Shown in pieces: positions 21,353 to 39,308 of a stretch of DNA of 64,000 nucleotides. The notes under the pieces were generated by a model, which did no database searches, was not told the DNA's origin, and saw only the letters and a program-made list of their open reading frames with translations. The translations under genes and the position numbers were made by a program. The stretch spans positions 62,001 to 126,000 of the forward strand of contig JARKOY010000024.1 in NCBI GenBank assembly GCA_029975555.1. Direction: 5' to 3'. The stretch comes from Spirochaetia bacterium (lineage in GTDB: Bacteria > Spirochaetota > Spirochaetia > Treponematales > Rectinemataceae). The stretch's first letter is position 1; the number at the start of each line of letters is the position of its first letter.

Positions 21353-21370
21353 GTCCTGTGTTTACAGGAC
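21353..21370. terminator. hairpin in the convergent gap
   Basis: GTCCTGT (21353-21359) and ACAGGAC (21364-21370) form a perfect 7-bp stem around GTTT, spanning the 16-base gap and the stop codon of the leftward gene. It can form in both transcripts; no T-run follows on either strand. Confidence 0.35.
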
Positions 21371-23119
21371 CACACTGCAGTTCTTGCCGCGGCTTTTGGC
21401 CTGGTACATGGCGGCATCGGCGCGGGACAAAAGCGTGTCGATGGTGTCTTCGCCCTCAAGCCCGACGACACCAAGGCTGACGGTCGCCCCAAGACTTTTC
21501 CCATTGATGACTCGCAGGCTCTCGGTTTCGAAGTGCGTGCGGATCCGCTCTGCGATGCGGAGCGCATCTTGTTTTTCGACCTTCGGCATAAATACGACGA
21601 GCTCGTCGCCGCCATAGAGACATGCGCTGTCGGTTTCCCTTGTACAGGTGCGGATCGAATGGGCAAGAGAGATGAGTATGTCATCTCCCACCTCGTGCCC
21701 GAAGCGGTCGTTGACTGTCTTGAAGTCGTCGATATCGAGCATGATGACCGACAGCGGCTCTCCGTTCTGTCGGGCATCTTTCATCGCCTTTGCAAGCTCA
21801 ATCATCAGATAGCGCCTATTTCTGAGCCCTGTCAGCGAATCCGTCAAACTCAGCTCACGGAAATGAGTCTGCCTCGCCTCAAGATTTTTCTTCTCAAGCT
21901 CCAGGTATTTGAAGCGGTCCGCGAGGGCCATGGCGAGGAACATGGACTCGAAGGCGATGCCGATCGAGATCGCATTGGACGTGAAACCATTGACGGGGAG
22001 CACTTTCAGCCCCATGAGCGCAAACACCAGGCCGCCAGCCACAAGGAAAGACCACGCAACAAGGTAATCTCTGGCAGGGCCATAGCCCTGTTTGATGCGC
22101 AGCACGGCAGCGATCGTCACCAGGACGGCGACGATGAGACCGAGGTAATGAGAGAGCACGAACGCAAGATCATCCAGCCTCACGATCGCTGCAACCGAGA
22201 TTAGGCTGCCGACTCCCGCCGCCGTTGCCAGAATATAAAACAGCAGCTTGCTCCCTTTTCTCAAATCCAAAAATGAAATCGTAAATACCGTGCCCCAGGT
22301 AATGAACTGTCCTGCCCACACCCAGAGCATCATCTGATCGAAGCCAGGCATCGTGCCGAAGAGGACCTTCGCGAAGCCCTGCAGATAAAAGACCCAGAGT
22401 CCAATCGCAACATTGTGGAAAATGAAGTAGAGATAGGAATGGTAATGAAAGGACAACAGCAGAAAAAGGCTGTACACGACCATCGCGACCATTATGCCGA
22501 ACAAGGCGCCGTACCCAAGAAAACTTTTCATCTGCTGTTCGGCAAAGAAGGGGGCGGTGACCAATGCAAGGTTCATGAGCACGTCGGTGCTGCTCGAAAT
22601 GCGGAGGTAGCAAGGCTTTTCTCGGAAGGCCCCAGCGGGGAGAGAGAAACAATAATAGCGCGAGTGCGGCGCTGCAGGATCGGACTTGACCTGTGCCCCC
22701 ACGTCGAATCGATCGAAGCCTCCTTCGGCGCGCGGCACATAGAACTCGACACGGTCGAGAATGATTGAAAAGCTCGGTTTTACGAGCAAGAGCCACTGAA
22801 CAGCCCTGTCTTCCGCATTGCTGCCAGGCCCATAGCCTGGCCCGAGCCTGGCCAATGGGATCGTAAACTTAAGCCATGATGCAGGCGCATGCTTGCCCGT
22901 CCAGACAGGCCTTCCATTCACCGGCGAGAAACGCCCGGAGAACTCAGGAGCGCTCACCTCGTCGATGCCGAGCGCCGGGTCTGCGTCGAAGTAGTAGTCG
23001 CTTATTTTTTCAAGGTCTATGACCGATGTAAGGTTTTCTTCTGAAGCGATTCTCTTGGGGAAGACACACGCCAGCCCCACAAAGAAGAGGAAAAGCCAAT
23101 ACTTATATTTTCTGACCAT
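21362..23119 (-). CDS. 7TM-DISM sensor diguanylate cyclase
   Basis: A 585-residue membrane c-di-GMP synthase. Residues 1-25 are a signal peptide; about 30-185 are an extracytoplasmic 7TMR-DISMED2-like sensory domain (ending RYYCFSLPAGAFREKPCYLRI); about 195-400 are seven helices of the 7TMR-DISM type; about 415-580 are a GGDEF domain (LSLTDSLTGLRNRRYL, then the signature loop GGDEL). RETD five residues before the loop is an intact RxxD inhibitory site, so product inhibition is expected. DISMED2 domains are thought to bind carbohydrate-like ligands in related proteins. TATACT abuts the start and there is no Shine-Dalgarno. It is the second of two tandem cyclase genes, 65 bases apart, probably with separate promoters. 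Confidence 0.9.
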   Translation of the reverse strand: MVRKYKYWLFLFFVGLACVFPKRIASEENLTSVIDLEKISDYYFDADPALGIDEVSAPEFSGRFSPVNGRPVWTGKHAPASWLKFTIPLARLGPGYGPGSNAEDRAVQWLLLVKPSFSIILDRVEFYVPRAEGGFDRFDVGAQVKSDPAAPHSRYYCFSLPAGAFREKPCYLRISSSTDVLMNLALVTAPFFAEQQMKSFLGYGALFGIMVAMVVYSLFLLLSFHYHSYLYFIFHNVAIGLWVFYLQGFAKVLFGTMPGFDQMMLWVWAGQFITWGTVFTISFLDLRKGSKLLFYILATAAGVGSLISVAAIVRLDDLAFVLSHYLGLIVAVLVTIAAVLRIKQGYGPARDYLVAWSFLVAGGLVFALMGLKVLPVNGFTSNAISIGIAFESMFLAMALADRFKYLELEKKNLEARQTHFRELSLTDSLTGLRNRRYLMIELAKAMKDARQNGEPLSVIMLDIDDFKTVNDRFGHEVGDDILISLAHSIRTCTRETDSACLYGGDELVVFMPKVEKQDALRIAERIRTHFETESLRVINGKSLGATVSLGVVGLEGEDTIDTLLSRADAAMYQAKSRGKNCSVVL

Positions 23120-23128
23120 TTGGGAGAA

Positions 23129-23157
23129 AGTATAGACAAAAAACAGCTACGTGTGAA
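23129..23157 (-). promoter_or_regulatory. leaderless-type promoter of the DISM cyclase gene
   Basis: Minus strand: TTCACA (23152-23157), a 17-bp spacer and TATACT (23129-23134), ending nine bases before ATG 23119. Good agreement with consensus and optimal spacing, with a predicted leader of about two bases. Confidence 0.5.
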
Positions 23158-23184
23158 TATTACTTTTCTCCATTATCTCCATAT

Positions 23185-24705
23185 TTAGCCTTCCACCCTG
23201 TTGCGCCCCCTGTTTTTTGCCTGATAGAGCGCTCGATCTGCAGCCATCAGCAGCCTATCGACGTTGGGGCCGCACTCACCTGTCTCACAGCAAGAAACCC
23301 CGATGGATACCGTCACTTTCACGGGAATCATGCGCTCATCGATTGCGATGCCATCGATCCCCTTGCGGATACCCTCGGCGATCTCCTTCGCCCGCTGTGT
23401 TTCTGTGTTCTGGAGCAGGACGACAAATTCCTCGCCGCCGTAGCGCCCCGCGAAACCGACATCCTTGCTCCTGCGCCTGATGACGCGGCCCACGGCCGAG
23501 AGCACCTTGTCGCCGGTCACGTGCCCGAACTGATCGTTCACGTTTTTGAAGTGATCGACGTCGATCATGAGAACGGAAACGGGGGTCCGCTTTTTCTGGG
23601 CGCAGGCGAGCGCCTTTTCAGCCTGTTCCATGAAGCGGCGTCGGTTGTAGAGGCCTGTGAGCACGTCGAAATTCGCGAATTTTCGTAGGTGCCTCATGAG
23701 GAGTCTGCTCTGGGTGATATCTCTGAATATATAAATCTTCCCTAACTGTAAACGCCCTTCGTAAATCTGCGTACTCTTGCCTTGGTAGTATCGCCTTGCG
23801 CCTGAAAGCTCGACCACTTTTTCGACGTTTTGATGCTGCGCTGAACTGAACAGCGCGGCATCGGCGGTGATGGATACCGGTTTGCCGATGGAGTTCGCAT
23901 CCAGCCACGGGAAAATTTTCTGCGCTGCGGCGTTGAATTCCGAAATTTTGCCGTCCCGATCCAAGACGACCACTCCTTCGTCGATGCTGGCGAAAATCGA
24001 ATACAAGAGCACTTCCTCTGATCCCAGCGCTCCGAAACGGAACACTGCGACGGCGATAAAAAAGGTCGCGACAGCGATGCCGAATGGCCCTAAATCGATG
24101 TTGTGAGGAGAAAGCCCAAGCTGATACACCAGTATCCAAGGCACCAAGTTCAAGCTCCCCAGCAGCATCCAGGCACTGTCGGTGGCGAATGAGCCTCCCT
24201 TCCTACGCCAGGAGCGAAACTGAAGAAAAAGGCTGAAGGCTATCATGAGAAACAGGTACGCATTTTGCACCCAGTACCAAAGGCCTTTCTCTATGACGAC
24301 CAGATGGTGCCCCTCGACGTTAGCCACGTTCAGAGACCTGTAAAAAAGGCCCTGATACTCCTGCGACGCAACCAGAAAAAGCGTAATAGTCGGTACGACG
24401 AAGACGAGGACCTTCATTCTGAACCGAGGAGCGTGATTATACCAAAGCTTCCATGAGAGCAGAAACCAGAACGAAGCGATGAATGCCAGCCCAAAATATT
24501 CAAAGGTGAGCCAGAACCTGACTTCGGAGAGAGAACGAGCCCCCAACTCCGAAGCATATCCAAAAATGTAGAAGAACGCGCAGAGTGCCGCGAAGAAAAA
24601 ATAGTGGGCCAAATGACTTTTTTGCCGTATGATCGAATAGATGACAAGAAATCCGACCCCTGCGCTCGCGACGTACAGGATCGTCCGCAATGTGTCTATG
24701 CTCAT
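23185..24705 (-). CDS. membrane PAS-GGDEF diguanylate cyclase
   Basis: A 506-residue protein. Residues about 1-210 hold seven hydrophobic segments resembling the 7TM N-terminal region of some histidine kinases; about 220-330 are a PAS domain (FASIDEGVVVLDRDGKISEF); about 345-505 are a GGDEF domain with FDVLTGLYNRRRFMEQ and the active-site loop GGEEF, so it should make c-di-GMP. An RSKD lies seven rather than five residues before the loop, so a canonical inhibitory site is not evident, unlike the neighbouring cyclase. ATG 24705 is preferred, with AGGTGGA upstream; a GTG five codons earlier has no ribosome site. The two cyclases differ in sensory input, suggesting different signals feeding one second messenger. 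Confidence 0.88.
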   Translation of the reverse strand: MSIDTLRTILYVASAGVGFLVIYSIIRQKSHLAHYFFFAALCAFFYIFGYASELGARSLSEVRFWLTFEYFGLAFIASFWFLLSWKLWYNHAPRFRMKVLVFVVPTITLFLVASQEYQGLFYRSLNVANVEGHHLVVIEKGLWYWVQNAYLFLMIAFSLFLQFRSWRRKGGSFATDSAWMLLGSLNLVPWILVYQLGLSPHNIDLGPFGIAVATFFIAVAVFRFGALGSEEVLLYSIFASIDEGVVVLDRDGKISEFNAAAQKIFPWLDANSIGKPVSITADAALFSSAQHQNVEKVVELSGARRYYQGKSTQIYEGRLQLGKIYIFRDITQSRLLMRHLRKFANFDVLTGLYNRRRFMEQAEKALACAQKKRTPVSVLMIDVDHFKNVNDQFGHVTGDKVLSAVGRVIRRRSKDVGFAGRYGGEEFVVLLQNTETQRAKEIAEGIRKGIDGIAIDERMIPVKVTVSIGVSCCETGECGPNVDRLLMAADRALYQAKNRGRNRVEG

Positions 24706-24797
24706 GGCACTCTGTTCCACCTTTCATTCTAGGGGAAGAAGGACAAATATGCTAGTGTTGGCTGTATGAACACATACGCGGACATCCCGGCGCTCTG

Positions 24798-25646
24798 TCA
24801 GAGCCGGTGGGTGGCCTGCATCGAACGCTCCAAGGCAGCGATTGCGCCATCGAGATCGTAGGAAATGAGCACGTTGAAGAGAATGTCTATGGCGGTGAGC
24901 TGGCTGATGCGCGAAAGCTCAGCCGCGCTCCGGTATATCCTCTCCACAGGAGGAATTTCGAGGACAAGATCGGAGTACTCGCGCAGGCGATTCTGGCCCG
25001 CCATGGTCATCGCGATGAGAAAGCAGCCCCGCGCCTTCGCCTGCGCCGCGACCTCCACCATCTCCTGGGTCTCGCCCGAATATGAGATGACAAAGGCGAT
25101 GTCGCTCGGCCGCAGAGAACATGCGGCGGTGATTTGGGCGTGGGTGTCGAAAAGATACGAGCTTGGTATGCCGATGCGCGTCAATTTTTGGTGCAAGTCT
25201 GAAGCCACAAGCCCTGAGGCGCCGATGCCGAATATCGCCGTCATGCCAGCCGCCCTGATCCGCTCGGCCGCCTCTTCCACCGCCTTGGGGTCGAGCGTCT
25301 GCGCGAGGGCGCTCATCGTGCGCCGCACGGCCTCGATCATGTCGTGGAGCGCTCGAGCACCGGGCGTCTGAGATTCAAGTTCGAGGTCGGGCAGATATTT
25401 CTCTCCCCAACCTTGATACACGTCCTTCGCGAGCCATATCTTGAAATCGGTGTATTTGCCCGCACCTATGTGCTTGCAGAATCGGACGACGGCGGCAGGG
25501 CTCGTACCTGCCTGACGGGCCAGCTCACTGATGTTGAGGTGCAGAGCCTTCTGGGGAGAGGCCTGGATAAAGGCCGCTATTTTGCGCTCTGCGTCCGCCA
25601 GCTCGGGCATTGCCGCGACAATCGTGTCAATTGCGCCCTGATTCAT
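24798..25646 (-). CDS. murR: MurR/RpiR-family transcriptional regulator
   Basis: A 282-residue regulator. The N-terminal HTH_6 domain spans about residues 1-77 (ISELARQAGTSPAAVVRFCK is its recognition region). A SIS phosphosugar-binding domain spans about 125-255 (IFGIGASGLVASDLHQKL; FVISYSGETQEMVEVA). In the MurR group the SIS domain senses MurNAc-6-phosphate. It starts one base after the murQ stop codon (TGA 25648-25650 on the minus strand), so murQ and murR are coupled. Naming it murR follows from this context; other RpiR proteins are built the same way. Likely sites of action are the two TGAAA-type dyads at 26601-26669. Confidence 0.87.
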   Translation of the reverse strand: MNQGAIDTIVAAMPELADAERKIAAFIQASPQKALHLNISELARQAGTSPAAVVRFCKHIGAGKYTDFKIWLAKDVYQGWGEKYLPDLELESQTPGARALHDMIEAVRRTMSALAQTLDPKAVEEAAERIRAAGMTAIFGIGASGLVASDLHQKLTRIGIPSSYLFDTHAQITAACSLRPSDIAFVISYSGETQEMVEVAAQAKARGCFLIAMTMAGQNRLREYSDLVLEIPPVERIYRSAAELSRISQLTAIDILFNVLISYDLDGAIAALERSMQATHRL

Positions 25647-25647
25647 C

Positions 25648-26583
25648 TCATTTTCCTACCTCATCCGAATGGATGCGCATGGCATCGGAAAGACGTCCCT
25701 GTCCGCGCTGTAAGAGGCTCCAAGCCTCCTCAGCCCCGATGCCGAGCGCGATCATGAGGATGGCGATCTTCGGTTTGCCGCCAGAAGCCAGAAATGCCGC
25801 CTCGGCCTCATCCTTGGAGCACCCCGTGGCCTGCCGGATAAGACGCTTCGAGCGCTCCACGAGCTTGCGGTTGACAGGCATCAGATCCACCATGAGATTG
25901 CCGTACACCTTGCCTATGCGGATCATGCTCGCCGTGGTGAGCATGTTGAGCACAAGCTTCTGCGCCGTGCCCGCCTTCATGCGGGTTGACCCCGTAATCA
26001 CCTCAGGCCCCACTTCGAGGAGTATCCTATGCTGCGCGAGGGCGAAGGTCTTCGATTCTCTGTTACAGGAGATGGCGCCAACCACTGCACCTAAAGCCTT
26101 CGCATACCGCATTGCACCGAGCACGTAGGGCGCAGACCCAGAGGCGGTGATGCCCACGAGCACGTCTTTCGCAGAGAAATCGATGTCGCGGAGGGCCTTT
26201 TCTCCCCCCTCGGGATCGTCCTCGGCCTTTTCGATCGAATTGCGGAGGGCGGCATCCCCTCCTGCGATGAGGCCCACGACCATTCCCTGCGGAACGCCGA
26301 AGGTCGGAGGGCATTCGGAAGCGTCGAGGACGCCAAGCCTTCCGGACGTCCCGGCGCCGATGTACACGAGTCTTCCTCCCGCGTTGAAGGCGCGGACAAT
26401 GTCTTCGACGAGGGCGGCGATGCTCGGCAGCGCCTTTTCCACCGCAAAAGGCACACCCTTGTCTTCTTCATTGATGATGCGCAAAATCTCAATCACCGGG
26501 AGGGCGTCGATATTCGCAGAGCGCGCATTGCGCGATTCCGTGGTCGCGTGCTCCAGGTAATCATCGATCGAATGAATGTCCAT
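25648..26583 (-). CDS. murQ: N-acetylmuramic acid 6-phosphate etherase
   Basis: A 311-residue SIS-fold lyase that splits the D-lactyl ether of MurNAc-6P to give GlcNAc-6P and lactate. YIGAGTSGRLGVLDASECPP contains the phosphosugar site and the catalytic Glu of DASEC; GITASGSAPYVLGA and ITGSTRMKAGTAQK are further family signatures. The C-terminal UBA-like helical bundle is present. Of the possible starts, ATG 26583 has AAGGA six bases upstream and begins with normal MurQ sequence (MDIHSIDDYLEHATTESRN). Divergent from the ABC importer across 190 bases holding two putative operators; murR follows. Confidence 0.95.
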   Translation of the reverse strand: MDIHSIDDYLEHATTESRNARSANIDALPVIEILRIINEEDKGVPFAVEKALPSIAALVEDIVRAFNAGGRLVYIGAGTSGRLGVLDASECPPTFGVPQGMVVGLIAGGDAALRNSIEKAEDDPEGGEKALRDIDFSAKDVLVGITASGSAPYVLGAMRYAKALGAVVGAISCNRESKTFALAQHRILLEVGPEVITGSTRMKAGTAQKLVLNMLTTASMIRIGKVYGNLMVDLMPVNRKLVERSKRLIRQATGCSKDEAEAAFLASGGKPKIAILMIALGIGAEEAWSLLQRGQGRLSDAMRIHSDEVGK

Positions 26584-26600
26584 GGGGGGTCCTTTCCTTA

Positions 26601-26615
26601 TGAAATTATTTTTCA
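26601..26615. promoter_or_regulatory. putative MurR operator 1 (TGAAA-N5-TTTCA)
   Basis: TGAAATTATTTTTCA, perfect 5-bp arms around five bases, 18 bases upstream of the murQ start codon. It is matched by operator 2 in inverted orientation (13 of 14 bases). Binding by the adjacent RpiR-type regulator is inference. Confidence 0.55.
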
Positions 26616-26654
26616 CACTTTTCGGAGAATTGCAAGCAGACCTTCCCCAAAAAT

Positions 26655-26669
26655 CGAAAAATTATTTCA
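26655..26669. promoter_or_regulatory. putative MurR operator 2
   Basis: CGAAAAATTATTTCA, arms GAAA/TTTC, centred 54 bp from operator 1 and ending nine bases before the -35 box of the importer promoter. The paired arrangement could support looping or joint control of both divergent units. Confidence 0.55.
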
Positions 26670-26677
26670 ATTTTAGA

Positions 26678-26706
26678 TTGACAACGGCAAAAAATCTCAC
26701 AATACT
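26678..26706 (+). promoter_or_regulatory. promoter of the ABC importer operon
   Basis: A consensus TTGACA (26678-26683), a 17-bp spacer and AATACT (26701-26706). The leader is about 60 bases and includes AAGGAGG (26761-26767) before ATG 26774. Confidence 0.6.
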
Positions 26707-26773
26707 GATAAAAAACCAAGGGGGCCACATATCACTGAAGATGTACCCTCATATCCTCACAAGGAGGCAGGCA

Positions 26774-28018
26774 ATGATGAAGAAACTCGCAATCGTAGTG
26801 CTGCTCGCGGCAATCCTGTTCCCCCTCTGTGCTCAGCAGAAAACGGTGAGCATCTGGGGCTGGCGGGCGCAAGATGTCGATGTATGGAAAGGAGTTGAAT
26901 CGGCACTCAGAGCAAAGGGTGAGCAGATCACCATCAAATATGAAGTGTTCCCGCCTACGGAATACGATTCAAAATTATTGGTGTCTCTTCAGGGAGGCGT
27001 GGGTCCGGATATTATGTATACCCGGCGACTTCCTGGCGCACGCACCCAGGCACTGCTCGACAATGGGTATCTCACCCCGCTCAATGGACTCGTGGATCTT
27101 TCCAACTTCGATGCCGTCTCTCTCAGCTTTATTAGCGCAAATAGCAAGGTTTGGGGCGTTCCCTTTGCGAACCAAATCATCGGTATCTTCTACAATAAGA
27201 CCATCTTCGACAAATATAAGCTCAAAGAGCCTCAGACCTGGGACGAGCTCGTCCAGATAGCAGAGACACTCAAGAAAAACGGCGTGACGCCCTTCTTCGT
27301 CTCGGGCAAAGAGGCGTGGACGCTCGCCATGCAGAACGCGATGGTGGGGGTGAGCTATCCCGGCGATGCGTGGATCGGTAAACTCGCGGCCGGCAAGGCC
27401 AAATTCACCGACCCCGAATATGTCGGTATGCTCAAGGACCTCAACGCTCTGAAGAAGTACTACCAGAAAGACTTCATGGCCAACACCACCGCGGAACAGG
27501 ACGTCGCCTTTGCCATGGAGCAAGTGGCCATGGTCTTCTACGGTGTGTGGGGCAATACAAACTGGCTCAAGACCAACCCAGATTTTAAGTTTGATTATTT
27601 CCCCATTCCGCCGAAAGATAAGAGTGTTCCCGCAAGGGCGTATACCTATATGGACGGTGCCTACGGCCTCAATAACGTCTCAAAGAACAAAGATGCCGCA
27701 CTTAAAGTGTTGAACTACACTGGTACAAAGGCTTATGGCGAGCTGTTCTCCTCCATTACCGGCGAGATTACGGCACTGAAAGGCGTGACCATGCCTGCAT
27801 CGAAGCCAATCCTCGTAAAGTGTTACGATAAAATGGTCAACATCGCCGCGACCAACCGTTATTGGGTCGGCTCTCCTTTTGATGCCGGAACGCCGAGCGT
27901 CTACAACATCTTGCAGGAGGATATGCAGACAATGTACCTCGATCAGACGACTCCTGAAGCTCTGGCGAAAAAGCTGCAGGACGGCATCTCTACATGGTTC
28001 CCCGCTTTCAAAAAATAG
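26774..28018 (+). CDS. ABC sugar transporter substrate-binding protein
   Basis: A 414-residue family-1 extracellular solute-binding protein. The first 20 residues are a Sec signal peptide (KKLAIVVLLAAILFPLCAQQ). The Cys at its end might be a relaxed spirochaetal lipobox, but the -3 to -1 residues FPL are poor for one, so signal peptidase I cleavage after CA is also possible. GVGPDIMYTRRLPGARTQALLD, WGVPFANQIIGIFYN and the C-terminal KLQDGISTWF region are typical of carbohydrate-binding members. ATG 26774 has AAGGAGG seven bases upstream; an open frame upstream is not coding. First gene of a three-gene importer; neighbours suggest a MurNAc-containing ligand. Hairpins follow before the permease genes. 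Confidence 0.9.
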   Translation: MMKKLAIVVLLAAILFPLCAQQKTVSIWGWRAQDVDVWKGVESALRAKGEQITIKYEVFPPTEYDSKLLVSLQGGVGPDIMYTRRLPGARTQALLDNGYLTPLNGLVDLSNFDAVSLSFISANSKVWGVPFANQIIGIFYNKTIFDKYKLKEPQTWDELVQIAETLKKNGVTPFFVSGKEAWTLAMQNAMVGVSYPGDAWIGKLAAGKAKFTDPEYVGMLKDLNALKKYYQKDFMANTTAEQDVAFAMEQVAMVFYGVWGNTNWLKTNPDFKFDYFPIPPKDKSVPARAYTYMDGAYGLNNVSKNKDAALKVLNYTGTKAYGELFSSITGEITALKGVTMPASKPILVKCYDKMVNIAATNRYWVGSPFDAGTPSVYNILQEDMQTMYLDQTTPEALAKKLQDGISTWFPAFKK

Positions 28019-28029
28019 GGGGCTTTCAC

Positions 28030-28057
28030 ACGCGTCCTACAACTCCAATGGACGCGT
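28030..28057 (+). other. intra-operon hairpin 1
   Basis: ACGCGTCC (28030-28037) and GGACGCGT (28050-28057), a perfect 8-bp stem with a 12-base loop, 11 bases after the binding-protein stop. Such hairpins often stabilise the upstream message so that the binding protein exceeds the permeases. Confidence 0.55.
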
Positions 28058-28071
28058 AAAACATGTGCTCG

Positions 28072-28105
28072 CGCCGCGGTCCGATACGCTTGTCGTGCCG
28101 CGGCG
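28072..28105 (+). other. intra-operon hairpin 2
   Basis: CGCCGCGG (28072-28079) and CCGCGGCG (28098-28105), a perfect 8-bp GC stem with an 18-base loop, second of two in the 120-base gap between binding-protein and permease genes. No T-run follows either. Confidence 0.55.
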
Positions 28106-28138
28106 TTACACAACAATATACATGACAGTGAGGACATT

Positions 28139-29038
28139 GTGCGGAAATATTCATTTCTGTGGATGCTCTTCCCAGCATTGCTCTTATATACGGTCTTCAT
28201 CGCGTACCCATTCTTTTCGAGTCTCGGCCTCAGTTTTTTCGACTGGCCTGGCATTGGCCCCAAAAAATTCATCGGCCTTGCGAACTACAAAAACATACTC
28301 TCTGGGTTCATGGCATCTGAATTTTACCGCGCACTGTGGCACAACATCGTCTTCTTCATTTGGTCCCTCATCTTATCGGTAGTCCCCGGTCTCTTCTTCG
28401 CGTTCCTGCTCGCCGCGGACATCAAAGGGACCAAATGGCTCAAGATAATCTTTTTCTTCCCAAATACACTTGCGATTGTCGTCGTCGGATTTCTGTGGGG
28501 GCTTCTTCTCAATCCTCAATGGGGATTAGTCAATCAGCTTTTCCGTGTACTGGGCCTCGGATTTCTCGCCAAGCCATGGCTCGGCGACACAAAGACGGCG
28601 CTGCCGACGATTATTTTTGTGACGGCATGGCGTGGCCTTGGGTTTTACATACTCGTATACCTCGCCGCCATCATCGGTGTAGACCGCGAAATGACGGAAG
28701 CAGCGCGCATTGACGGGGCAACAGAACTACAGATCGCCGGCCGCATTATTCTGCCGCATCTCTACCCGATCATCGCAACCACCGCAATGCTCAAATTCAT
28801 ATGGACCTTCAACATATTCGACATTGTGTACGCCATGGAAGGCACGCAGGGCGGACCAGCAGGCTCCACCGATGTGCTTGGCACGTTGTTCTACCGGATC
28901 GCCTTTGGCGGGCTTGGCTCGAGCCAGGTCGGCATGGGCCTCGGTGCGACTGTGGTCACGCTCATATTCCTCGTCGTGTTCCCTGTGTCGATATTCTATG
29001 TCTTTATTGTTGAAAGACGGGTGGAAAGGGGCGAGTGA
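28139..29038 (+). CDS. ABC sugar transporter permease (MalF-like)
   Basis: A 299-residue inner-membrane permease with six predicted helices. The cytoplasmic EAA loop EAARIDGATELQIAGRIILP, which docks the ATPase, is intact. The start is GTG 28139 with AGGA four bases upstream. The next permease gene begins inside or at its stop codon (GTGATG), so the two are translationally coupled. Confidence 0.92.
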   Translation: MRKYSFLWMLFPALLLYTVFIAYPFFSSLGLSFFDWPGIGPKKFIGLANYKNILSGFMASEFYRALWHNIVFFIWSLILSVVPGLFFAFLLAADIKGTKWLKIIFFFPNTLAIVVVGFLWGLLLNPQWGLVNQLFRVLGLGFLAKPWLGDTKTALPTIIFVTAWRGLGFYILVYLAAIIGVDREMTEAARIDGATELQIAGRIILPHLYPIIATTAMLKFIWTFNIFDIVYAMEGTQGGPAGSTDVLGTLFYRIAFGGLGSSQVGMGLGATVVTLIFLVVFPVSIFYVFIVERRVERGE

Positions 29039-29865
29039 TGTTCAGACTGAATCGTTTCCAGAAAGTGATCGTGTGGGCTTTCCTCCTTCTCCTCGCCTTC
29101 GTGAATCTCTACCCGATCGGGATCATGATCTTGTCGAGCTTCAAGTCCACGCGTGAAATATTTTTGAAGCCCTTCAATCTGCCGGCCGTATGGAGGTGGC
29201 AGAATTATGTGTCCGCATGGCAGCGCGCAGACTTCGCGACATACTTCAAGAATTCGATCCTGGTGACGGCTGTCTCGATCGCATCCATACTCCTCGTCTC
29301 TTCGATGGCGGCCTACGTCATCGCGCGCTTCGATTTTAAGTTCAAGCGCAGTATATACCTCTATATGCTCGCAGGGCTCGCACTCCCCACAAGGCTCGCG
29401 ATCATCCCTATTTTCCTCATAATGCGCAATCTGCACCTGCTCGACAAACTTTCGGGACTCGTCATTGTGTATACTGCAGGAGGGATCGCCTTTTCTGTTT
29501 TTCTCCTTGTGAATTTCTTCAAGAAATTACCGCACGACATTGAAGACTCTGCCCAAATAGACGGGGCTGGCCCTTTCCGCATCTACTGGCAGATCGACCT
29601 GCCTTTACTGAAGCCCGCCCTGGTCACGGTGGCCATGTTCAACTTCATCGACGTATGGAACGACTTCTTCTTCCCCCTCATCCTTCTAAGTTCCAAAGTC
29701 AAAAAAACCATTCCTCTCGGACTGCAGGCTTTCTTCGGAGAGTACACGATCGAGTGGGATATCCTCTTCGCTGCCCTGAACATCTCGGTCTTACCGGTAT
29801 TGATACTATTCCTGATCCTCTCTAAGCAATTCATTGCGGGGATGACTGAAGGAGCGCTGAAATAG
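29038..29865 (+). CDS. ABC sugar transporter permease (MalG-like)
   Basis: A 275-residue permease, six helices, with the EAA-type loop EDSAQIDGAGPFRIYWQIDL. ATG 29038 shares one base with the previous stop (TGATG) and has AAGGGG six bases upstream; a GTG at 29035 is an alternative. No ATP-binding subunit follows: the next gene is convergent after three bases. The importer therefore must use an ATPase encoded elsewhere, as is common for CUT1 sugar systems sharing an MsmX/UgpC-type ATPase. Confidence 0.92.
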   Translation: MFRLNRFQKVIVWAFLLLLAFVNLYPIGIMILSSFKSTREIFLKPFNLPAVWRWQNYVSAWQRADFATYFKNSILVTAVSIASILLVSSMAAYVIARFDFKFKRSIYLYMLAGLALPTRLAIIPIFLIMRNLHLLDKLSGLVIVYTAGGIAFSVFLLVNFFKKLPHDIEDSAQIDGAGPFRIYWQIDLPLLKPALVTVAMFNFIDVWNDFFFPLILLSSKVKKTIPLGLQAFFGEYTIEWDILFAALNISVLPVLILFLILSKQFIAGMTEGALK

Positions 29866-29868
29866 AAG

Positions 29869-31053
29869 TTACCGCCCAGTTGCGCCGTACAAGAGATACC
29901 GTGCTCTCCGGGCAAGGAACTTCTCCTCTCCTTGATGAGCAAAAGCTAGACACTCATCGAGAGAAGCGCCGCGCTCGATCATGGATCGAAGCCCCGTCCC
30001 TCCCGCAAGTTTGTCGAAAAAAGTAAGCGCAGGGTTATCCCAGTCTTCGCGCCAGACAAACTCGCGAGGATACATGCGGTGAATGGTGTGAATGATCGCG
30101 ATCCCGGTATCGAGCGAACGCAGCGATTGGCGATCGATCAGAGAGACGAGGACACCTTCGCAGAGCTTGCCTTGGTGTTTGGAGGCGGTTGGGGTAAAGA
30201 ATATCGACGAGAAGACGAGCCCCGGCAACTCAAGCAAAGAAAGCTGTTCACGCAGCGCTTCTCCATCGATAAATGGGGCGCCGATGATTTCGAAGGGGCG
30301 CGCGGTGCCGCGGCCTTCGGAAAGCCATGTGCCTTCGACGAGGCAGGTCCCGGGATACAGCTCGGCGCAGACAAGAGTCGGTAGATTAGGAGACGGCAGA
30401 GGCCAAGGGAGGCCAGTCTCCTCCCATGGCTGGCGTGCGTCCCATCCGGACAAGGGAATGACTTCGAGATTGGAGTTTGGAAAATATTCACCCTTGAGGT
30501 ACATGGCAAACTCGCCTATGGTCATCCCATAGCGAGGTGGCAGGCCATACCCTCCGACAAAGCTCTCGAATTCCCTGAGGATGGGAGAACCCTCGACTTT
30601 GATACCGCCGATGGGATTGGGCCTGTCGAGCACAATGACGGGTGTTCCGACTTTTTCACACACTTCCATGATATACGCCAGAGTATAAAGGTAGGTATAA
30701 TAGCGGCACCCTACGTCCTGCATGTCGAACACGACGGCATCGAGGGACTCGAGCATCCAAGGCTCTGGCTTGAGGCGTTTGCCGTAGAGAGAATATGCGG
30801 GTATGCCCTTAAAATGTTCATCCTCCAGCTGCACCGCATCCTGCGCGGCACCCCGGAATCCGTGCTCCGGGCCAAAAAAACAGACAGGCTTAAGTCCTGC
30901 ATCCATAAAGGCTTTCCATGCCGGAACACCCCCTGCCGTGATCGCGGCAGGATTCGTCGCTAGACCGTAGCGTCCGTTCTGTCTCGTTGGATCACTCAGA
31001 AAACGTTCAAGACCGATTACGACTGAATTCTGCCGGTGATTTTTCTGATTCAT
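29869..31053 (-). CDS. namZ: NamZ-type exo-beta-N-acetylmuramidase (DUF1343)
   Basis: A 394-residue protein that is almost entirely the DUF1343 fold: FFGPEHGFRG, VFDMQDVGCRYYTYLYTL, IVLDRPNPIGG, WPLPSPNLPTL and CLVEGTWLSEGRGTARPFE are visible family blocks. Characterised members (YbbC/NamZ of Bacillus subtilis and of Tannerella) release MurNAc from the non-reducing end of peptidoglycan fragments. Unlike the secreted Bacillus enzyme this protein has no signal peptide: the fold begins right after a polar 12-residue start. It is therefore predicted to act in the cytosol on imported MurNAc-GlcNAc. It ends three bases from the importer genes and diverges from the AmiE-like gene. Confidence 0.85.
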   Translation of the reverse strand: MNQKNHRQNSVVIGLERFLSDPTRQNGRYGLATNPAAITAGGVPAWKAFMDAGLKPVCFFGPEHGFRGAAQDAVQLEDEHFKGIPAYSLYGKRLKPEPWMLESLDAVVFDMQDVGCRYYTYLYTLAYIMEVCEKVGTPVIVLDRPNPIGGIKVEGSPILREFESFVGGYGLPPRYGMTIGEFAMYLKGEYFPNSNLEVIPLSGWDARQPWEETGLPWPLPSPNLPTLVCAELYPGTCLVEGTWLSEGRGTARPFEIIGAPFIDGEALREQLSLLELPGLVFSSIFFTPTASKHQGKLCEGVLVSLIDRQSLRSLDTGIAIIHTIHRMYPREFVWREDWDNPALTFFDKLAGGTGLRSMIERGASLDECLAFAHQGEEKFLARRARYLLYGATGR

Positions 31054-31059
31054 GATAAT

Positions 31060-31088
31060 ATGATATCATTCGACCATATGACAAACAA
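31060..31088 (-). promoter_or_regulatory. promoter of namZ, overlapping that of the divergent hydrolase gene
   Basis: Minus strand: TTGTTT (31083-31088), a 17-bp spacer and TATCAT (31060-31065), ending six bases before ATG 31053. The 10-bp palindrome ATGATATCAT (31060-31069) supplies a TATCAT -10 to both strands; the plus-strand copy (31064-31069) ends eight bases before ATG 31078. Confidence 0.45.
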
Positions 31089-32232
31089 GAACAATGATAT
31101 CCAAAACGAAAGCGACGTGGTTTCCGAAGATTCCTTGAAATTTCTCCTGGAAGAGGCCGTTGCACGGAACCTCTGTACGGGTGCCGCCGCCGCTGTTGGA
31201 CTTGAAGGAAAAACACTCTGGTCATATTGCGTCGGGACGACGGGTACGAAGAAAAAAGATGCTCAAGACGAAGTATGGCCAGCCACAATTACACCAGACA
31301 CACGCTTCGATGTGGCCTCGCTCACAAAGCCCCTGTCGACGGCCCTGCTCACGTTGAAGGCATTCCAAGCAGGAGCGCTCAAACTCGACGATCCTGTCGA
31401 GAAGTTCTTGCCAGAGATGCATTGGAAAGCTAGAACAATTCCTCTGATCGCCCTGCTCACCCACACGGGAGGCATGCCCGCAATCCCTGCGTTACACCGC
31501 TATTTTCCTAACCCGACACATCTCGATCGAAATGTTGCGCTATCGAAGCTCCTCTCAATAGAACCGGAATCGCCTATTGGACAGCGGGTCCAGTATTCAT
31601 GCACGGGGTACATGCTCGTGGGCGCAATCCTCGAACGGATCTCCGGCATGCTTGTCGGCGAACTCTTCCGACAAGAAATCGCCGAACCACTCAATTTGCC
31701 GCACGCTACGTTTGCACAACGCATCTCTGACACGGGAGAACCGGCACCTTTGAAAGACACTGTCGAAACCGAGTTTTGTCCCTGGAGACGGAAACGGGTG
31801 CACGGCCAGGTCCACGATGAAAGCGCCTACTGCCTGGGAGGTCATTCCGGCAATGCAGGGCTTTTTCTCTCCCTGAAAGACGCCATGATCCTCGGCAACT
31901 TCATCTTACAGGAAGGTGCGCATGACGGAAAGCAAGTGCTCAAGCCAGAAATAAGCAGGTTATTGCAGCATGAATTCACTTTTGGGTTAGAAGAGAGACG
32001 CACTATAGGATTCAAACTCCACGATGACGATACTGCGGACGGCCCCTTGTGGCCAGCACAGGCATTCGGACATACCGGTTTTACCGGCACGAGCATTTTT
32101 TTTGAACCACAGCGGCACCTCGTCGCGATCCTATTCACCAATAGAGTCTACTACGGACGGGACGAAACAGCGGATGCCATTGTCGCGCTCCGCAAAGCAT
32201 TCCACACAAAGGTCTGGCGTTTATTCTCTTGA
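31078..32232 (+). CDS. AmiE-like serine hydrolase (class C beta-lactamase family)
   Basis: A 384-residue penicillin-binding-protein-like hydrolase. The catalytic SxxK is SLTK (Ser81, Lys84) and the KTG-equivalent is HTG (332-334). The second motif reads Tyr173-Ser-Cys175 where YSN or YSD is usual, a notable change. GGHSGNAGLFLSLKD matches the AmiE/YbbE group, which in Bacillus trims stem peptides from MurNAc. No signal peptide is seen, so a cytosolic peptide-releasing role on imported muropeptides is inferred; an esterase or beta-lactamase activity is possible. ATG 31078 gives a start clear of namZ; ATG 31060 and 31036 are in frame but 31036 would overlap namZ. Its N-terminal part is clearly more AT-rich than neighbouring genes. 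Confidence 0.8.
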   Translation: MTNKNNDIQNESDVVSEDSLKFLLEEAVARNLCTGAAAAVGLEGKTLWSYCVGTTGTKKKDAQDEVWPATITPDTRFDVASLTKPLSTALLTLKAFQAGALKLDDPVEKFLPEMHWKARTIPLIALLTHTGGMPAIPALHRYFPNPTHLDRNVALSKLLSIEPESPIGQRVQYSCTGYMLVGAILERISGMLVGELFRQEIAEPLNLPHATFAQRISDTGEPAPLKDTVETEFCPWRRKRVHGQVHDESAYCLGGHSGNAGLFLSLKDAMILGNFILQEGAHDGKQVLKPEISRLLQHEFTFGLEERRTIGFKLHDDDTADGPLWPAQAFGHTGFTGTSIFFEPQRHLVAILFTNRVYYGRDETADAIVALRKAFHTKVWRLFS

Positions 32233-32249
32233 TTTTTCCATTGGGAGGA

Positions 32250-32278
32250 TAGATACAACAAAAGACCTAGAATATAAT
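32250..32278 (+). promoter_or_regulatory. promoter of the sugar kinase gene
   Basis: TAGATA (32250-32255), a 17-bp spacer and consensus TATAAT (32273-32278), with a leader of about 55 bases before the kinase gene, which has AGGAG ahead of its start. Confidence 0.45.
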
Positions 32279-32340
32279 GGGAAACGAGTACGTCTTTGAA
32301 TCGGACTACGCATAACCTGTAAAAATTGCCAGGAGCCCCC

Positions 32341-33288
32341 ATGAACCAACAGTGGATTTTTGGCATCGATGGCGGTGGAACGTCGACTCGGCTGAGGGTC
32401 GAAAGTCTCGAGAGGGAACTTCTCTATCAGGCGGAGGGGCCGAGCCTCAACCCGCGATCGGTGGGCTGGGAGGGGTCCCGCACGACGCTCGAGGGGCTCT
32501 TCTCCGCGATGTACGCGACGACTGGCCTTGGTCCTGACGGCTGCGTTGCAGGGTTCGCCGGCGTGGCGGGCATCGACAGAAGTGAAGACACCGGGATCAT
32601 GCGCAGCATCATCAGCGATGCCGCCGACCTTGGCATTGACACCACCCTGGAAGTGCGGAATGACTCGATTCCGGCGCTCGCGGGCGCGTTCGGCGAGCTG
32701 CGCGGCATTCTGCTCATCGCGGGGACAGGCTCCATCGCGGTGGGCTCCGACGGGGCTGGCCGTATTGTACGCTCCGGGGGTTGGGGGCACATTCTCGGCG
32801 ACGAAGGGTCAGCGTACTGGGTCGGGCTGAGAGCCCTCAACGCGGCCACCCGATTCCACGACAGACGAAGCCCGCAGACCGACCTCTTGGGGAGGGCGCT
32901 GGCGTATTTCGGCGAAAAAGAGCCTTTTTCGCTCATCCCCGCGGTATACGAGAATTTCGACAAGGCAAAGGTGGCGGCGTTTGCGCGCATTGTGGCAGAA
33001 GAGCGCGATCGGGGCGACGAGGTCGCGCAGCAGATTTTTAAGGACGCCGCAGAGGAGCTTGCGCTGCTCGCCATCTCCATCGCGACCCGGCTCGGCGAAG
33101 CGCAGTCGGGTGGAAAAATCGCCTTCTCGGGTGGTTTTATCACCAACAACGAGCGCTTGTGGCACGACACCGAGGCGCGCATTCTCTCGGCGCTGCCGCG
33201 CCACCGGATCATCTCGCCTCAGGCGGATGCCGTGAGCGGGGCCTGTCTGCTCGCCTTGACCGCCGTAGGGCAGAGCAGCCTCGGATAG
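32341..33288 (+). CDS. murK: BadF/BadG-family N-acetylhexosamine kinase (MurNAc/GlcNAc kinase)
   Basis: A 315-residue ASKHA-fold kinase. Phosphate loop 1 is FGIDGGGTSTRLRV, loop 2 LLIAGTGSIAVG, and GGWGHILGDEGSAYWVG is the family signature. The BadF/BadG/BcrA/BcrD family includes eukaryotic GlcNAc kinase and clostridial MurK, which phosphorylates both MurNAc and GlcNAc. Because sugar entering by the ABC importer is unphosphorylated, a kinase of this type is what MurQ needs to receive MurNAc-6P. The symbol is therefore assigned from context, and GlcNAc- or glucosamine-specific activity is possible. ATG 32341 has AGGAG five bases upstream. It ends five bases from a convergent permease gene. Confidence 0.78.
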   Translation: MNQQWIFGIDGGGTSTRLRVESLERELLYQAEGPSLNPRSVGWEGSRTTLEGLFSAMYATTGLGPDGCVAGFAGVAGIDRSEDTGIMRSIISDAADLGIDTTLEVRNDSIPALAGAFGELRGILLIAGTGSIAVGSDGAGRIVRSGGWGHILGDEGSAYWVGLRALNAATRFHDRRSPQTDLLGRALAYFGEKEPFSLIPAVYENFDKAKVAAFARIVAEERDRGDEVAQQIFKDAAEELALLAISIATRLGEAQSGGKIAFSGGFITNNERLWHDTEARILSALPRHRIISPQADAVSGACLLALTAVGQSSLG

Positions 33289-35852: not shown

Positions 35853-38800
35853 ATGGTAACGAAACGCGATCACGGCATACACCTCGACAGAACATCCCCG
35901 CAAGAGCGGGCCAAACTTATTTCTTACATCAACATAAAGCTGCGGAGTCTGGGGCTGCCGGTCTATTCGAAAGAAGGCACCGGCTTCGTCCAACTCGCGG
36001 CAGACATGCTCGAGAGCTTCAGACAAAAGGATAGGCTGCTTCCCAGAATTCTTCCTCCGTCGGACCAGAGAATTCAGAATTTCATCGACAGGTACCTCGC
36101 GGACCTTGGGCTGGCGCGCGTGCCGCAGCTGCCCTCAAACACCCTCGTGCTCGATCGGTACGGCATGGCGCGGGAGCTCTCGCTGCCGCCCGACGGGCAC
36201 AAGCACATCTCTCCCACCCTCACCTCGTACCGCGTGCGGAACGGCGTGCTGCACAATCCCAAGAGCGATCGCAGGACGACCGAGGGGGTCTTCCACATCG
36301 CCGAAGGCGGCCTTCCCATTCCGTACGACAAGAAGGCGGTTCCGAAACTCACCTTTGCAAAGCTCCTGGAAGCGGCGCTGAATCCTCCTATTGAATTGCT
36401 CGAACTCCCCTTCACCGCGGGCGAGAACGAAAAGGCGTACACCTTCGTGTCGGTACTGCTGCGCCCGATCGTGCGTCCCGAAATTCCAGGCTACTGCGAA
36501 GAGCGCTCTATGGAAGTGCGCTTTTTCGCTCCCGGCTCGCTTGTGGCGAACGTGGATTTCGTCGAGAGCATTTTCGGCAACTCCGGCGATCCTTTCATTC
36601 CAGAGAATGATGCGTCGATCGACCCTCTGCACTGGACGGGGACGACTGGGTGCATCATTCTGGCGACGCACCTCACCGAACTCACCAAAAAGGAACTCGG
36701 GCTGCCGCACTGGGACCAGGCGACCGAGCGACAGCGCCGCGACGGCATGTGCTGGCGCGAACCAACCGAAAAATACAACGACGGGCGGGCCTTCAAGGTC
36801 ACCGCGCGCGACGAGTCGGGCGTCATCATCACCATCATCGCGGACAACTATTTCGGTTACTCAAAAAAGGAGATCAAGTCCCACATTTCCTACTCCGCAA
36901 ACCTCCTTGGCCTCGTGGAGGAAGAGCACGCGGGCGGCGCCCTCGTCTTTCCCTCCTACAACCTCGGCACGCGCTTTGTGCCCGACACCAACCTCAAATC
37001 CAAGGGACACAGCCTCCACGATGTCTATACCATCATGCGCGGCCGCGTCGAAATGAAAGAAAAAGGCTATGCGGTCGACCTCACTTTTCCGAATATCGTC
37101 TATCTGCCCGAAGATGCCTACATCTCGCTCGACGATCAGCATGCGCACTGGGTGAACGACGGTAAGGAAGAGTCCCTGAGAGTTCTGCCAGGCTACGTCT
37201 ATGTGCACCCCACGGGCTATCGCGTGCACATGGAGCGACACCCCACGACCGGAGCATGGCGCCTCATCGGCACCGCGGCAGAGGGACTTTTGTGCCACAA
37301 ACCCTGCACGGTATCGGGCGGCGGCAAATCCGAAATCGCAAAATCGATCCACGATGCGATCACGTACATGCCCATCATCATCGCCGACTTCGAAAAAGAC
37401 ATGCAGGCCGTACGCGAGATCATCGAAAAAGACTACGGCAACCGTTTCCGCGACGAGGCTGAAAATCACGGAAAAGACGCGCGCCCCATCCTCTCGCCGA
37501 AACGCTCCCTCGGTTCGGTGATCAAATTGCTTTCGCCTTCGCCTGCGTACAACGACGAATACAACGAATGGCTCCGCTCGATCCCTGAACGCATTAAAAG
37601 CCTCGTCTTCTTGGTCAAGCGTTTCTACCAGCCGGACTGGGGCAACAACTGGGCCTCGCACTTCTCGGTGGATGCAGTCAATGGCACGACGGGGAACATC
37701 CTCAAGTTCGAGGGACGGCCGATCATGGGCTCCTATCTCCGCGTGGGCAAGAACGAAAACGGTATGAACCGTTTCTTCAAACTGAGGCAGGACTTCATGC
37801 CCGCGTTCAAGCTTCAGTGGGAAGACGACATCTCAGCATCCATCATCGTCCCGGCAAACCAGCTCGAAAACCTACCCGAGTGGGCCTCGAGGCACCCGAG
37901 CCTTAAATTCGCCAAAAACTGCGAGGCGCGCTTCTTCCAGCGACCCGACGACGCCATCATCCGGGGCTACGACAAGCAGACCGAAAAAGACCTGTCGCGC
38001 CAGGACAATTTTCTCTCGAACTTCGAGCCGCTCACTCGGGCCGACGCTTCGCGCATCATAGAAAACACCATTCATTTCTATGAATACACCGAGCCCATGC
38101 GGAAATTCATCGACGAGGCAGAAAAGGACTCCAACTTCGAATACTTCGTCGCGTCCAACTGCTTTAGGATCGTCGACGGCGCTCCTTCCAAAAACCCGCG
38201 CTACCTGCAGCTCGACCCCACCTATGTCAATCCGGAAGCGCGGTACCTCGCCGAGCTCGGTCCGCGGCTCTATCGCCGCATCCCTGCGGACAAGCCGCTT
38301 CCGCAGCCTGTAGGCGCGGTCCTGCCCGGCAGGCGCAACAATCCGCCCGACCCCAAGGCCGGCATACGCCCCCTCGCTGTGTACGGGCCCATTCACTATC
38401 AGGAGCTGCCGGAGCTCTTCATGGACTTCGTGTGCTCGCTCACCGGCAAGAGTCCTTCGACCACAGGCGCAGGCAGTGAGGGGGCGCTCACCAAGGGACC
38501 CTTCAACCCCCTCGTACCCACCAGCGACCTCAACAACGCGCTTCTCGGCTTTATTCTGACGGGGTATTCCGGATTCACGACGGCTGCGGGGCACATCGGG
38601 CACAAATACAAAGTAGACCACGACATATCCCTCCTGATGCCCGAGCTCTGGGCACGCCTTGGGCCAGAAGAGCGCGATCCAGAGTTTTTGAAGAGCCACG
38701 GCTACCTCGAAAAAGTCGACGATTTCACCTACAAGGGGAAGCTCATCCCTGCATCGAGGCTCGGATGGCGCATTACGCCGCTCTTTGCGGCGACCTATCT

Positions 38801-39308
38801 GGGGCGACTGTTCGATACGCCGTCCGTGGTCTTCCCTGAAGACATGCTGAGGCCCGAACTTCAGTCGCTCGAGGAGTTCGTCGACGGCATCGAGAACATT
38901 GCGGCAGCGATGGAAAAGTCCGCCAAGGCCTACTTCGAAGATGGATCGTACGAGGCTGCGATACCGCCGCTCAAGGCAGTGCTCTCCGTCATGGCATACG
39001 GCACCTACGAGGGCAAGAGCATTCAGGATCCCGAAGTCCGCAGGCTCTTCGACCGCGACTACGTGCTCGCCTCGGACTGGTACAAGGCGCGGCTCGAACG
39101 CTACCGCGAACGAGAGATCGCCTACATCGAGTCGTCGATTTCGTACCTGCGCAAATTCCTCGCGGAGCGCGCCGAGCCTAAGAGTCTGACAGAACGCAGG
39201 GTCCAAGCTGAGCTCTCAAACGCCCACGGCAGGCTTGAACAACTCATGGCACCGAACTTCCTCGAGCGGATATGGGGCTCGATCGGGCTCGATCTTCTGT
39301 ATTCATGA
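35853..39308 (+). CDS. probable pyrophosphate-type phosphoenolpyruvate carboxykinase
   Basis: A 1151-residue soluble protein without signal peptide or membrane helices. I identify it tentatively as PPi-dependent PEP carboxykinase, a family of about 1100-1150 residues described from Propionibacterium and Entamoeba that interconverts oxaloacetate plus PPi with PEP, CO2 and phosphate. Supporting features are the length, the block ADNYFGYSKKEIKSHISY (about 330-347) with GGALVFPSYNLG, and the glycine-rich phosphate loop CTVSGGGKSEIAKSI (about 485-499; Lys492) as in PEPCK-like kinases. A second half holds TGKSPSTTGAGSEGALTKGP and ITGY-type segments. It lies between hutH and hutI and overlaps neither; hutI starts ten bases on. 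The alternative is a member of an uncharacterised PEPCK-like family. The identification is from memory of the family, not a search. Confidence 0.6.
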   Translation: MVTKRDHGIHLDRTSPQERAKLISYINIKLRSLGLPVYSKEGTGFVQLAADMLESFRQKDRLLPRILPPSDQRIQNFIDRYLADLGLARVPQLPSNTLVLDRYGMARELSLPPDGHKHISPTLTSYRVRNGVLHNPKSDRRTTEGVFHIAEGGLPIPYDKKAVPKLTFAKLLEAALNPPIELLELPFTAGENEKAYTFVSVLLRPIVRPEIPGYCEERSMEVRFFAPGSLVANVDFVESIFGNSGDPFIPENDASIDPLHWTGTTGCIILATHLTELTKKELGLPHWDQATERQRRDGMCWREPTEKYNDGRAFKVTARDESGVIITIIADNYFGYSKKEIKSHISYSANLLGLVEEEHAGGALVFPSYNLGTRFVPDTNLKSKGHSLHDVYTIMRGRVEMKEKGYAVDLTFPNIVYLPEDAYISLDDQHAHWVNDGKEESLRVLPGYVYVHPTGYRVHMERHPTTGAWRLIGTAAEGLLCHKPCTVSGGGKSEIAKSIHDAITYMPIIIADFEKDMQAVREIIEKDYGNRFRDEAENHGKDARPILSPKRSLGSVIKLLSPSPAYNDEYNEWLRSIPERIKSLVFLVKRFYQPDWGNNWASHFSVDAVNGTTGNILKFEGRPIMGSYLRVGKNENGMNRFFKLRQDFMPAFKLQWEDDISASIIVPANQLENLPEWASRHPSLKFAKNCEARFFQRPDDAIIRGYDKQTEKDLSRQDNFLSNFEPLTRADASRIIENTIHFYEYTEPMRKFIDEAEKDSNFEYFVASNCFRIVDGAPSKNPRYLQLDPTYVNPEARYLAELGPRLYRRIPADKPLPQPVGAVLPGRRNNPPDPKAGIRPLAVYGPIHYQELPELFMDFVCSLTGKSPSTTGAGSEGALTKGPFNPLVPTSDLNNALLGFILTGYSGFTTAAGHIGHKYKVDHDISLLMPELWARLGPEERDPEFLKSHGYLEKVDDFTYKGKLIPASRLGWRITPLFAATYLGRLFDTPSVVFPEDMLRPELQSLEEFVDGIENIAAAMEKSAKAYFEDGSYEAAIPPLKAVLSVMAYGTYEGKSIQDPEVRRLFDRDYVLASDWYKARLERYREREIAYIESSISYLRKFLAERAEPKSLTERRVQAELSNAHGRLEQLMAPNFLERIWGSIGLDLLYS

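Follow-up and report, generated by a model that had tools for sequence, protein, structure and literature searches.

The window analysed here is a 64,000-nucleotide stretch of contig C113 in the genome of a free-living, Rectinema-like spirochaete (3.27 Mb in 179 contigs, 99% complete; designated G000). At positions 24798–33288 it carries a candidate locus for scavenging of N-acetylmuramic acid (MurNAc), in which, as a sequence-only reading had proposed, genes for MurR, MurQ, an ATP-binding cassette (ABC) sugar importer, NamZ, a hydrolase, and a BadF-type kinase lie together (Table 1). Every one of these genes is an intact open reading frame (ORF) that matches its family, as judged from the ORF list and from Pfam and NCBIfam profiles. 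The arrangement is no assembly artefact; Rectinema subterraneum (G023/L041/L063) has the identical gene order, as do other genomes of the genus over the part that their contigs cover.

Table 1. Genes and candidate operators of the locus, in window coordinates.
Feature	Position	Strand	Remarks
MurR-type RpiR/SIS transcriptional regulator	24798–25646	−	HTH_6 and SIS domains; a 79–94% identical MurR adjoins MurQ in most congeneric genomes
MurQ, MurNAc-6-phosphate etherase	25648–26580	−	TIGR00274; longer GTG form to 26616 in the ORF list
Candidate MurR operator TGAAATTATTTTTCA	26601–26615	none	perfect TGAAA-N5-TTTCA palindrome in the divergent gap between murQ and the binding-protein gene
Second candidate MurR operator CGAAAAATTATTTCA	26655–26669	none	one mismatch to TGAAA-N5-TTTCA; relatives also have paired sites ahead of murQ
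CUT1-type sugar-binding protein with signal peptide	26774–28018	+	SBP_bac_1; hydrophobic N-terminus
ABC permease 1	28139–29038	+	BPD_transp_1; 88–94% in relatives with the type A cassette (see below)
ABC permease 2	29035–29865	+	BPD_transp_1
NamZ (exo-β-N-acetylmuramidase family), without signal peptide	29869–31053	−	NamZ_N 232 bits and NamZ_C 167 bits; motif FGPEHGFRG
S12-type serine hydrolase (β-lactamase fold), putative cytosolic muropeptide hydrolase	31060 or 31078 to 32232	+	PF00144 165 bits; SLTK / YSCTGY / HTGF
MurK-like BadF/NAGK-type kinase	32341–33288	+	PF01869 (BcrAD_BadFG); best PDB match 8zo3

Importer, etherase and candidate operators

MurQ scores 381 bits against TIGR00274, for which the curated cut-off is 302, and its nearest PDB chains are the MurQ proteins 1nri and 4lzj (E ∼1e-92), with a conserved DASECPPTFG segment. 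Translation of murQ most likely starts at 26580 because the alternative GTG at 26616 would overlap a candidate MurR box. The palindrome in question, TGAAA-N5-TTTCA with at most one mismatch, is found upstream of murQ in 14 of 19 regions, taken from loci that belong in part to related species, and ranks at the top of the 3072 palindromes of that design. Only two matches are present in the entire window, both of them in the divergent gap upstream of murQ (26601 and 26655). The number as such is not significant, as 36 of 100 shuffles contained at least two; the argument thus rests on position and on the relatives. The two sites are good candidates for operators that MurR would bind, not proof of such binding.

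The binding protein (start corrected to 26774) and the two permeases of the locus, together with a MalK/MsmK-type ATPase encoded elsewhere in the genome, identify the importer as a member of the CUT1 family. No ATPase gene is located within the cluster. The only UgpC/MsmK-type ATPase above cut-off in the genome (489 bits) is encoded on contig C112, as an orphan without a neighbouring permease gene. CUT1 importers habitually share one ATPase, a habit that the orphan fits, and we infer that it pairs with the permeases of the locus. Structure prediction of the binding protein yielded a fair model (predicted local distance difference test score, pLDDT, of 78).

The kinase and its association with MurQ

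The best PDB match of the kinase by far is 8zo3, a kinase of MurNAc and N-acetylglucosamine (GlcNAc), with an E value of 5e-46; its score of 160.6 bits is nearly double that of the next chain, and human NAGK scores 83. The sugar site GGWGHILGDEGS (GGWGHxxGDEGS) is retained, and GGWGH is identical in 8zo3 and NAGK. A study of Tannerella forsythia MurK reports that MurNAc is admitted where small residues (S133-P134-L135) stand in place of bulky Glu/His at the lactyl site (PMC10465942). In a sequence alignment, the window kinase has G-G-W and no Glu or His at this position, as do 8zo3 and NAGK, the latter of which phosphorylates muramyl dipeptide (PMC10465942). The GGWGH site therefore appears permissive for MurNAc, which is not proof of that activity, the motif being common to GlcNAc kinases. 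Clostridium acetobutylicum MurK belongs to the same kinase family, as seen from 8zo3 (a PDB entry of that function, source organism unconfirmed) and from the GGWGH site; it acts on both MurNAc and GlcNAc with a slight preference for GlcNAc (PMC5790795) and does not phosphorylate disaccharides (PMC4432640). A predicted structure of the window kinase was a weak model (pLDDT 65) and was set aside unused.

Absence from the genome was assessed one protein family at a time, with MupG, NagZ, AmgK/MurU, and endo-glucosaminidases outside the search. PF02378, the EIIC family of the phosphotransferase system (PTS) to which MurP belongs, has no match in the whole genome, with the control matched in seven genomes; other PTS families were not searched, and within this scope the earlier statement that a PTS permease is missing is borne out. 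AnmK likewise has no match in the genome, its positive controls being detected in known genomes. The only other BadF-family protein, encoded in unrelated-looking surroundings on C112 with the orphan ATPase ∼5 kb away, lacks the GGWGH motif. Thus, among the sources of MurNAc 6-phosphate (MurNAc-6P) that were tested, the window kinase alone is present. NagA and NagB are encoded next to each other on contig C111.

The distribution of the kinase was determined in 296 Spirochaetota genomes at a threshold of E ≤ 1e-20. MurQ is present in 14 of the genomes and the kinase in eight, seven of which carry MurQ as well (Fisher p ∼7e-10). The two genes are spaced by 20–60 bp in G316, G319, and G278, and belong to one shared cluster in G000 and G284. 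No such kinase is adjacent to murQ where a PTS stands beside it, be it MurP-like EIIBC with MupG (G120 and G304) or a mannose-type PTS (G127 and G072); G072 has a distant, 26%-identical kinase on another contig. Five Acidobacteria loci also pair the kinase with MurQ, the one that was read (L072) including a sodium symporter, and a Bacillota contig (L070) shows the arrangement MurR-kinase-NamZ.

The gene set, which the sequence-only reading had suggested looking for in other spirochaetes, is met again in G284, a genome from another family of the same class. There the binding protein, both permeases, and a reversed NamZ gene follow in the same order and orientation, with 58, 68, 64, and 47% identity to their window counterparts, and a cluster murR-murK-namZ-S12...murQ lies ∼17 kb from this cassette. 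The window NamZ groups with the NamZ of the G284 cassette (100/99 support). The 8zo3 match with its retained sugar site, the lack of PTS_EIIC, the co-occurrence of kinase and MurQ, and the presence of NagA and NagB support the earlier proposal that a MurK-like kinase and an ABC importer take the place of a PTS in feeding MurQ.

Also near the murQ cluster of G284 are a flavin adenine dinucleotide (FAD)-linked oxidase with EtfAB, an L-Ala-D/L-Glu epimerase-like protein, and peptide importers. The FAD-linked oxidase and EtfAB neighbour MurQ in both G284 and G005 (L192 4139–10367; L042 5193–8896), and are likely a D-lactate oxidation module, plausibly a sink for the lactate released by MurQ.

Hydrolases and the exchangeable importer cassette

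The NamZ protein is assigned to its family by the NamZ_N and NamZ_C domains and by the PEHG motif. Characterised NamZ members are described as exported, although export does not define the family at the sequence level. Neither NamZ nor the S12 protein of the window has a signal peptide as assessed by hydropathy and the longest possible start; a hydrophobic N-terminus is missing and the longest in-frame start leaves no room for one. The same holds for NamZ from the murK loci of G278, G284, and L070 and for S12 from G284. The rule is not a strict one, since certain NamZ proteins without a signal peptide belong to unrelated contexts. Hydrolysis by NamZ and the S12 protein is thus predicted to be probably cytosolic, and the likeness to the Bacillus locus seen by the sequence-only reading fails on topology. 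Since C. acetobutylicum MurK is inactive on disaccharides, a cytosolic cutter would be needed ahead of the kinase; the steps fall into a consistent order if NamZ acts in the cytosol and is followed by a kinase specific for monomers.

The S12 protein contains the SxxK (SLTK), YSCTGY, and HTG (HTGF) motifs of S12 serine hydrolases, and the set S[LM]TK / YSCTGY / HTGF is common to the readable S12 proteins near murQ or murK. The protein had been called AmiE-like. Its nature as a serine hydrolase stands, but its identity as AmiE (a MurNAc-L-Ala amidase) is not established, the best NCBIfam model being PBP4B with 104 bits, far below the cut-off of 385.

Pairs of NamZ and S12 with signal peptides do exist in other spirochaetes: in L175, L176, and L189, a signal-peptide NamZ adjoins a large S12 protein likewise equipped with a signal peptide, with no MurQ or kinase nearby, apparently forming a separate extracellular system. 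NamZ is antiparallel to the importer genes in the window (29865–31081) as well as in the G284 cassette (L193 7408–11713). In the window, the starts of NamZ and the divergent S12 gene are only a few bases apart, which leaves almost no promoter room between them.

Within the genus, the flanks murR-murQ and kinase-EamA-HAL are mostly 70–95% identical and the middle part varies. The type A cassette, importer-NamZ-S12, is found in G000 and G023 and, as far as the contigs extend, in G018, G019, and G022. Type B (G015 and G016) has a different importer (29–45% identity) and an N-acylglucosamine 2-epimerase (AGE); type C (G020) has a third importer (54–62%), an S12 protein, and the AGE. Judged by their flanks, G015, G016, and G020 are the nearest to the window, but their cassettes are different; the importer cassette between murRQ and the kinase has therefore likely been replaced among relatives. 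In L044 (13412–14605), L046 (14031–15224), L049 (7770–8963), and L068 (2524–3807), the murQ-murK slot is occupied by an N-acylglucosamine 2-epimerase together with other ABC importers, and MurR-type palindromes are nearby in the first three; a substrate resembling N-acetylmannosamine (ManNAc) is possible for slots of this type. Two further variants were observed. In L043 (1–3070), the S12 gene is followed downstream by a second sugar ABC importer, whose binding-protein gene is preceded by two MurR-type palindromes, and L062 (313–2677) contains similar permeases and a HAD phosphatase immediately ahead of the kinase.

Proposed pathway and its alternatives

The locus is likely to encode a MurR-controlled, PTS-free scavenging pathway for peptidoglycan sugars. 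With the gene identities and their linkage and co-occurrence, the lack of PTS_EIIC, the missing signal peptides, and the presence of NagA/NagB and the ATPase as direct observations, we infer the substrates of all its steps. The binding protein would capture a sugar that includes MurNAc, the likeliest candidates being the disaccharide MurNAc-GlcNAc and short muropeptides with this disaccharide; the sugar would be imported unphosphorylated through the two permeases, powered by the orphan ATPase. In the cytosol, the S12 hydrolase would strip any peptide or ester and NamZ would split MurNAc from GlcNAc. The 6-hydroxyl of MurNAc, and probably that of GlcNAc, would be phosphorylated by the MurK-like kinase; MurQ would convert MurNAc-6P into GlcNAc-6P and D-lactate, and NagA and NagB would lead on to fructose-6-phosphate. 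Bacillus, Staphylococcus, and E. coli phosphorylate MurNAc sugars during uptake. Given that hydrolysis is probably cytosolic in the spirochaete, NamZ and MurK would probably replace MurP and MupG, with cutting ahead of phosphorylation, the reverse of the PTS route. A more specific version is put forward tentatively, as it falls somewhat short of probable: the CUT1 importer takes up intact MurNAc-GlcNAc or muropeptide, cytosolic NamZ cuts it, one dual-specificity kinase phosphorylates both products, and the exchangeable cassette lets relatives use the same slot, under MurR control, for other wall-derived amino sugars (e.g., ManNAc by way of the AGE epimerase).

Several points weigh against this pathway. 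The binding protein is only remote kin of proteins with known ligands, NAGK-type kinases cannot be assigned by sequence to MurNAc rather than GlcNAc, and the role of the S12 protein is deduced from its position alone. The signal-peptide calls come from hydropathy and the longest possible start. Across the phylum, co-occurrence of NamZ with the kinase (5/8, p 0.07) or with MurQ is not significant. Several relatives have an epimerase in the NamZ slot, so that the imported sugar may differ.

The locus might then be a general amino-sugar module, with an importer for GlcNAc, ManNAc, or chitin-type oligosaccharides, a kinase acting mainly on GlcNAc, and MurQ and MurR serving mainly to recycle the cell's own wall. 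Among solved structures with named ligands, those closest to the binding protein are the chitin-oligosaccharide-binding NagB2 and NagB1, the sole NCBIfam match of the kinase is NagK_SO3507 (far below cut-off), and an AGE-type ManNAc/GlcNAc epimerase fills the slot of sister species. We nevertheless consider such a module unlikely, as NamZ is specific for MurNAc glycosides, the kinase and MurQ co-occur and adjoin across the phylum, and no other MurNAc-6P source is apparent in the genome from the PTS_EIIC and AnmK searches.

Hydrolysis could alternatively be extracellular, with NamZ and the S12 protein leaving the cell by another route and the importer taking free MurNAc. NagZ and AmiE of Bacillus work outside the cell (PMC5061867), as the signal-peptide pairs of L175, L176, and L189 apparently do. 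This arrangement is rendered quite improbable by the missing signal peptides of the window proteins and of their murK-locus homologues, together with ORF starts too short to encode one. That the genes are chance neighbours without a common pathway, as NamZ on the opposite strand and its non-significant co-occurrence with the kinase might suggest, is hardly credible when three or more congeners keep the order, G284 has a related cassette, and L070 shows MurR-kinase-NamZ.

The PTS-free scavenging pathway resembles the T. forsythia MurT-MurK-MurQ system, which combines a transporter, a separate ATP-dependent MurNAc 6-kinase, and MurQ without a PTS (PMC5790795, PMC10465942). The differences are that MurT is a carrier of the sodium-symporter type, that T. 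forsythia MurK is only distant kin of the window kinase (∼25 bits), and that the T. forsythia muramidases are periplasmic (PMC10465942); the Acidobacteria locus L072 is close to the T. forsythia design. In the Bacillus subtilis cluster murQ-murR-murP-amiE-nagZ-ybbC(namZ), MurQ, MurR, a NamZ-family protein, and a separate amidase are likewise grouped (PMC5061867), but uptake is by a PTS EII-BC, hydrolysis is extracellular, and NagZ is included, whereas the window has an ABC importer and a kinase in a cluster without NagZ. In the MurP-MupG-MurQ route of Staphylococcus aureus, too, MurNAc-GlcNAc enters as a disaccharide and is cleaved intracellularly (PMC6262408); there, however, the PTS phosphorylates first and MupG cuts the phosphorylated disaccharide, the version found in G120 and G304. 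Agrobacterium YejBEF-YepA is an ABC importer for peptidoglycan fragments as well (PMC9790009), but carries anhydromuropeptides and is tied to the AmpD/NagZ route rather than to MurK/MurQ.

The principle of transporter, kinase, and MurQ is already known from Tannerella, and the new part is the ABC importer with a probably cytosolic NamZ. In the open-licence literature searched, no ABC importer for MurNAc sugars is described, uptake proceeding by PTS (MurP), sodium symporter (MurT), or muropeptide carriers (AmpG, Yej). If the proposed pathway is true, the locus is a testable candidate for such an importer; MurQ beside a PTS permease would predict phosphorylation during uptake, and MurQ beside this kinase would predict import first and phosphorylation later. 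Rectinema cohabitans uses the biomass of dead Desulfobacterium (PMC6052044), and the locus would suggest a molecular basis for such necromass feeding by Rectinema in anoxic groundwater, with dead cell walls as part of the food.

Two observations concern the surroundings of the locus. Two membrane-bound diguanylate-cyclase-like proteins (GGEEF/GGDEL-like motifs, judged by eye; 21362–24720, minus strand) adjoin murR and are kept there in relatives. A 1151-residue protein (35853–39308, plus strand) without a Pfam or NCBIfam match is a pyrophosphate-dependent phosphoenolpyruvate carboxykinase, matching PDB entries 6k31 and 8e1u over its full length with >1150 bits.

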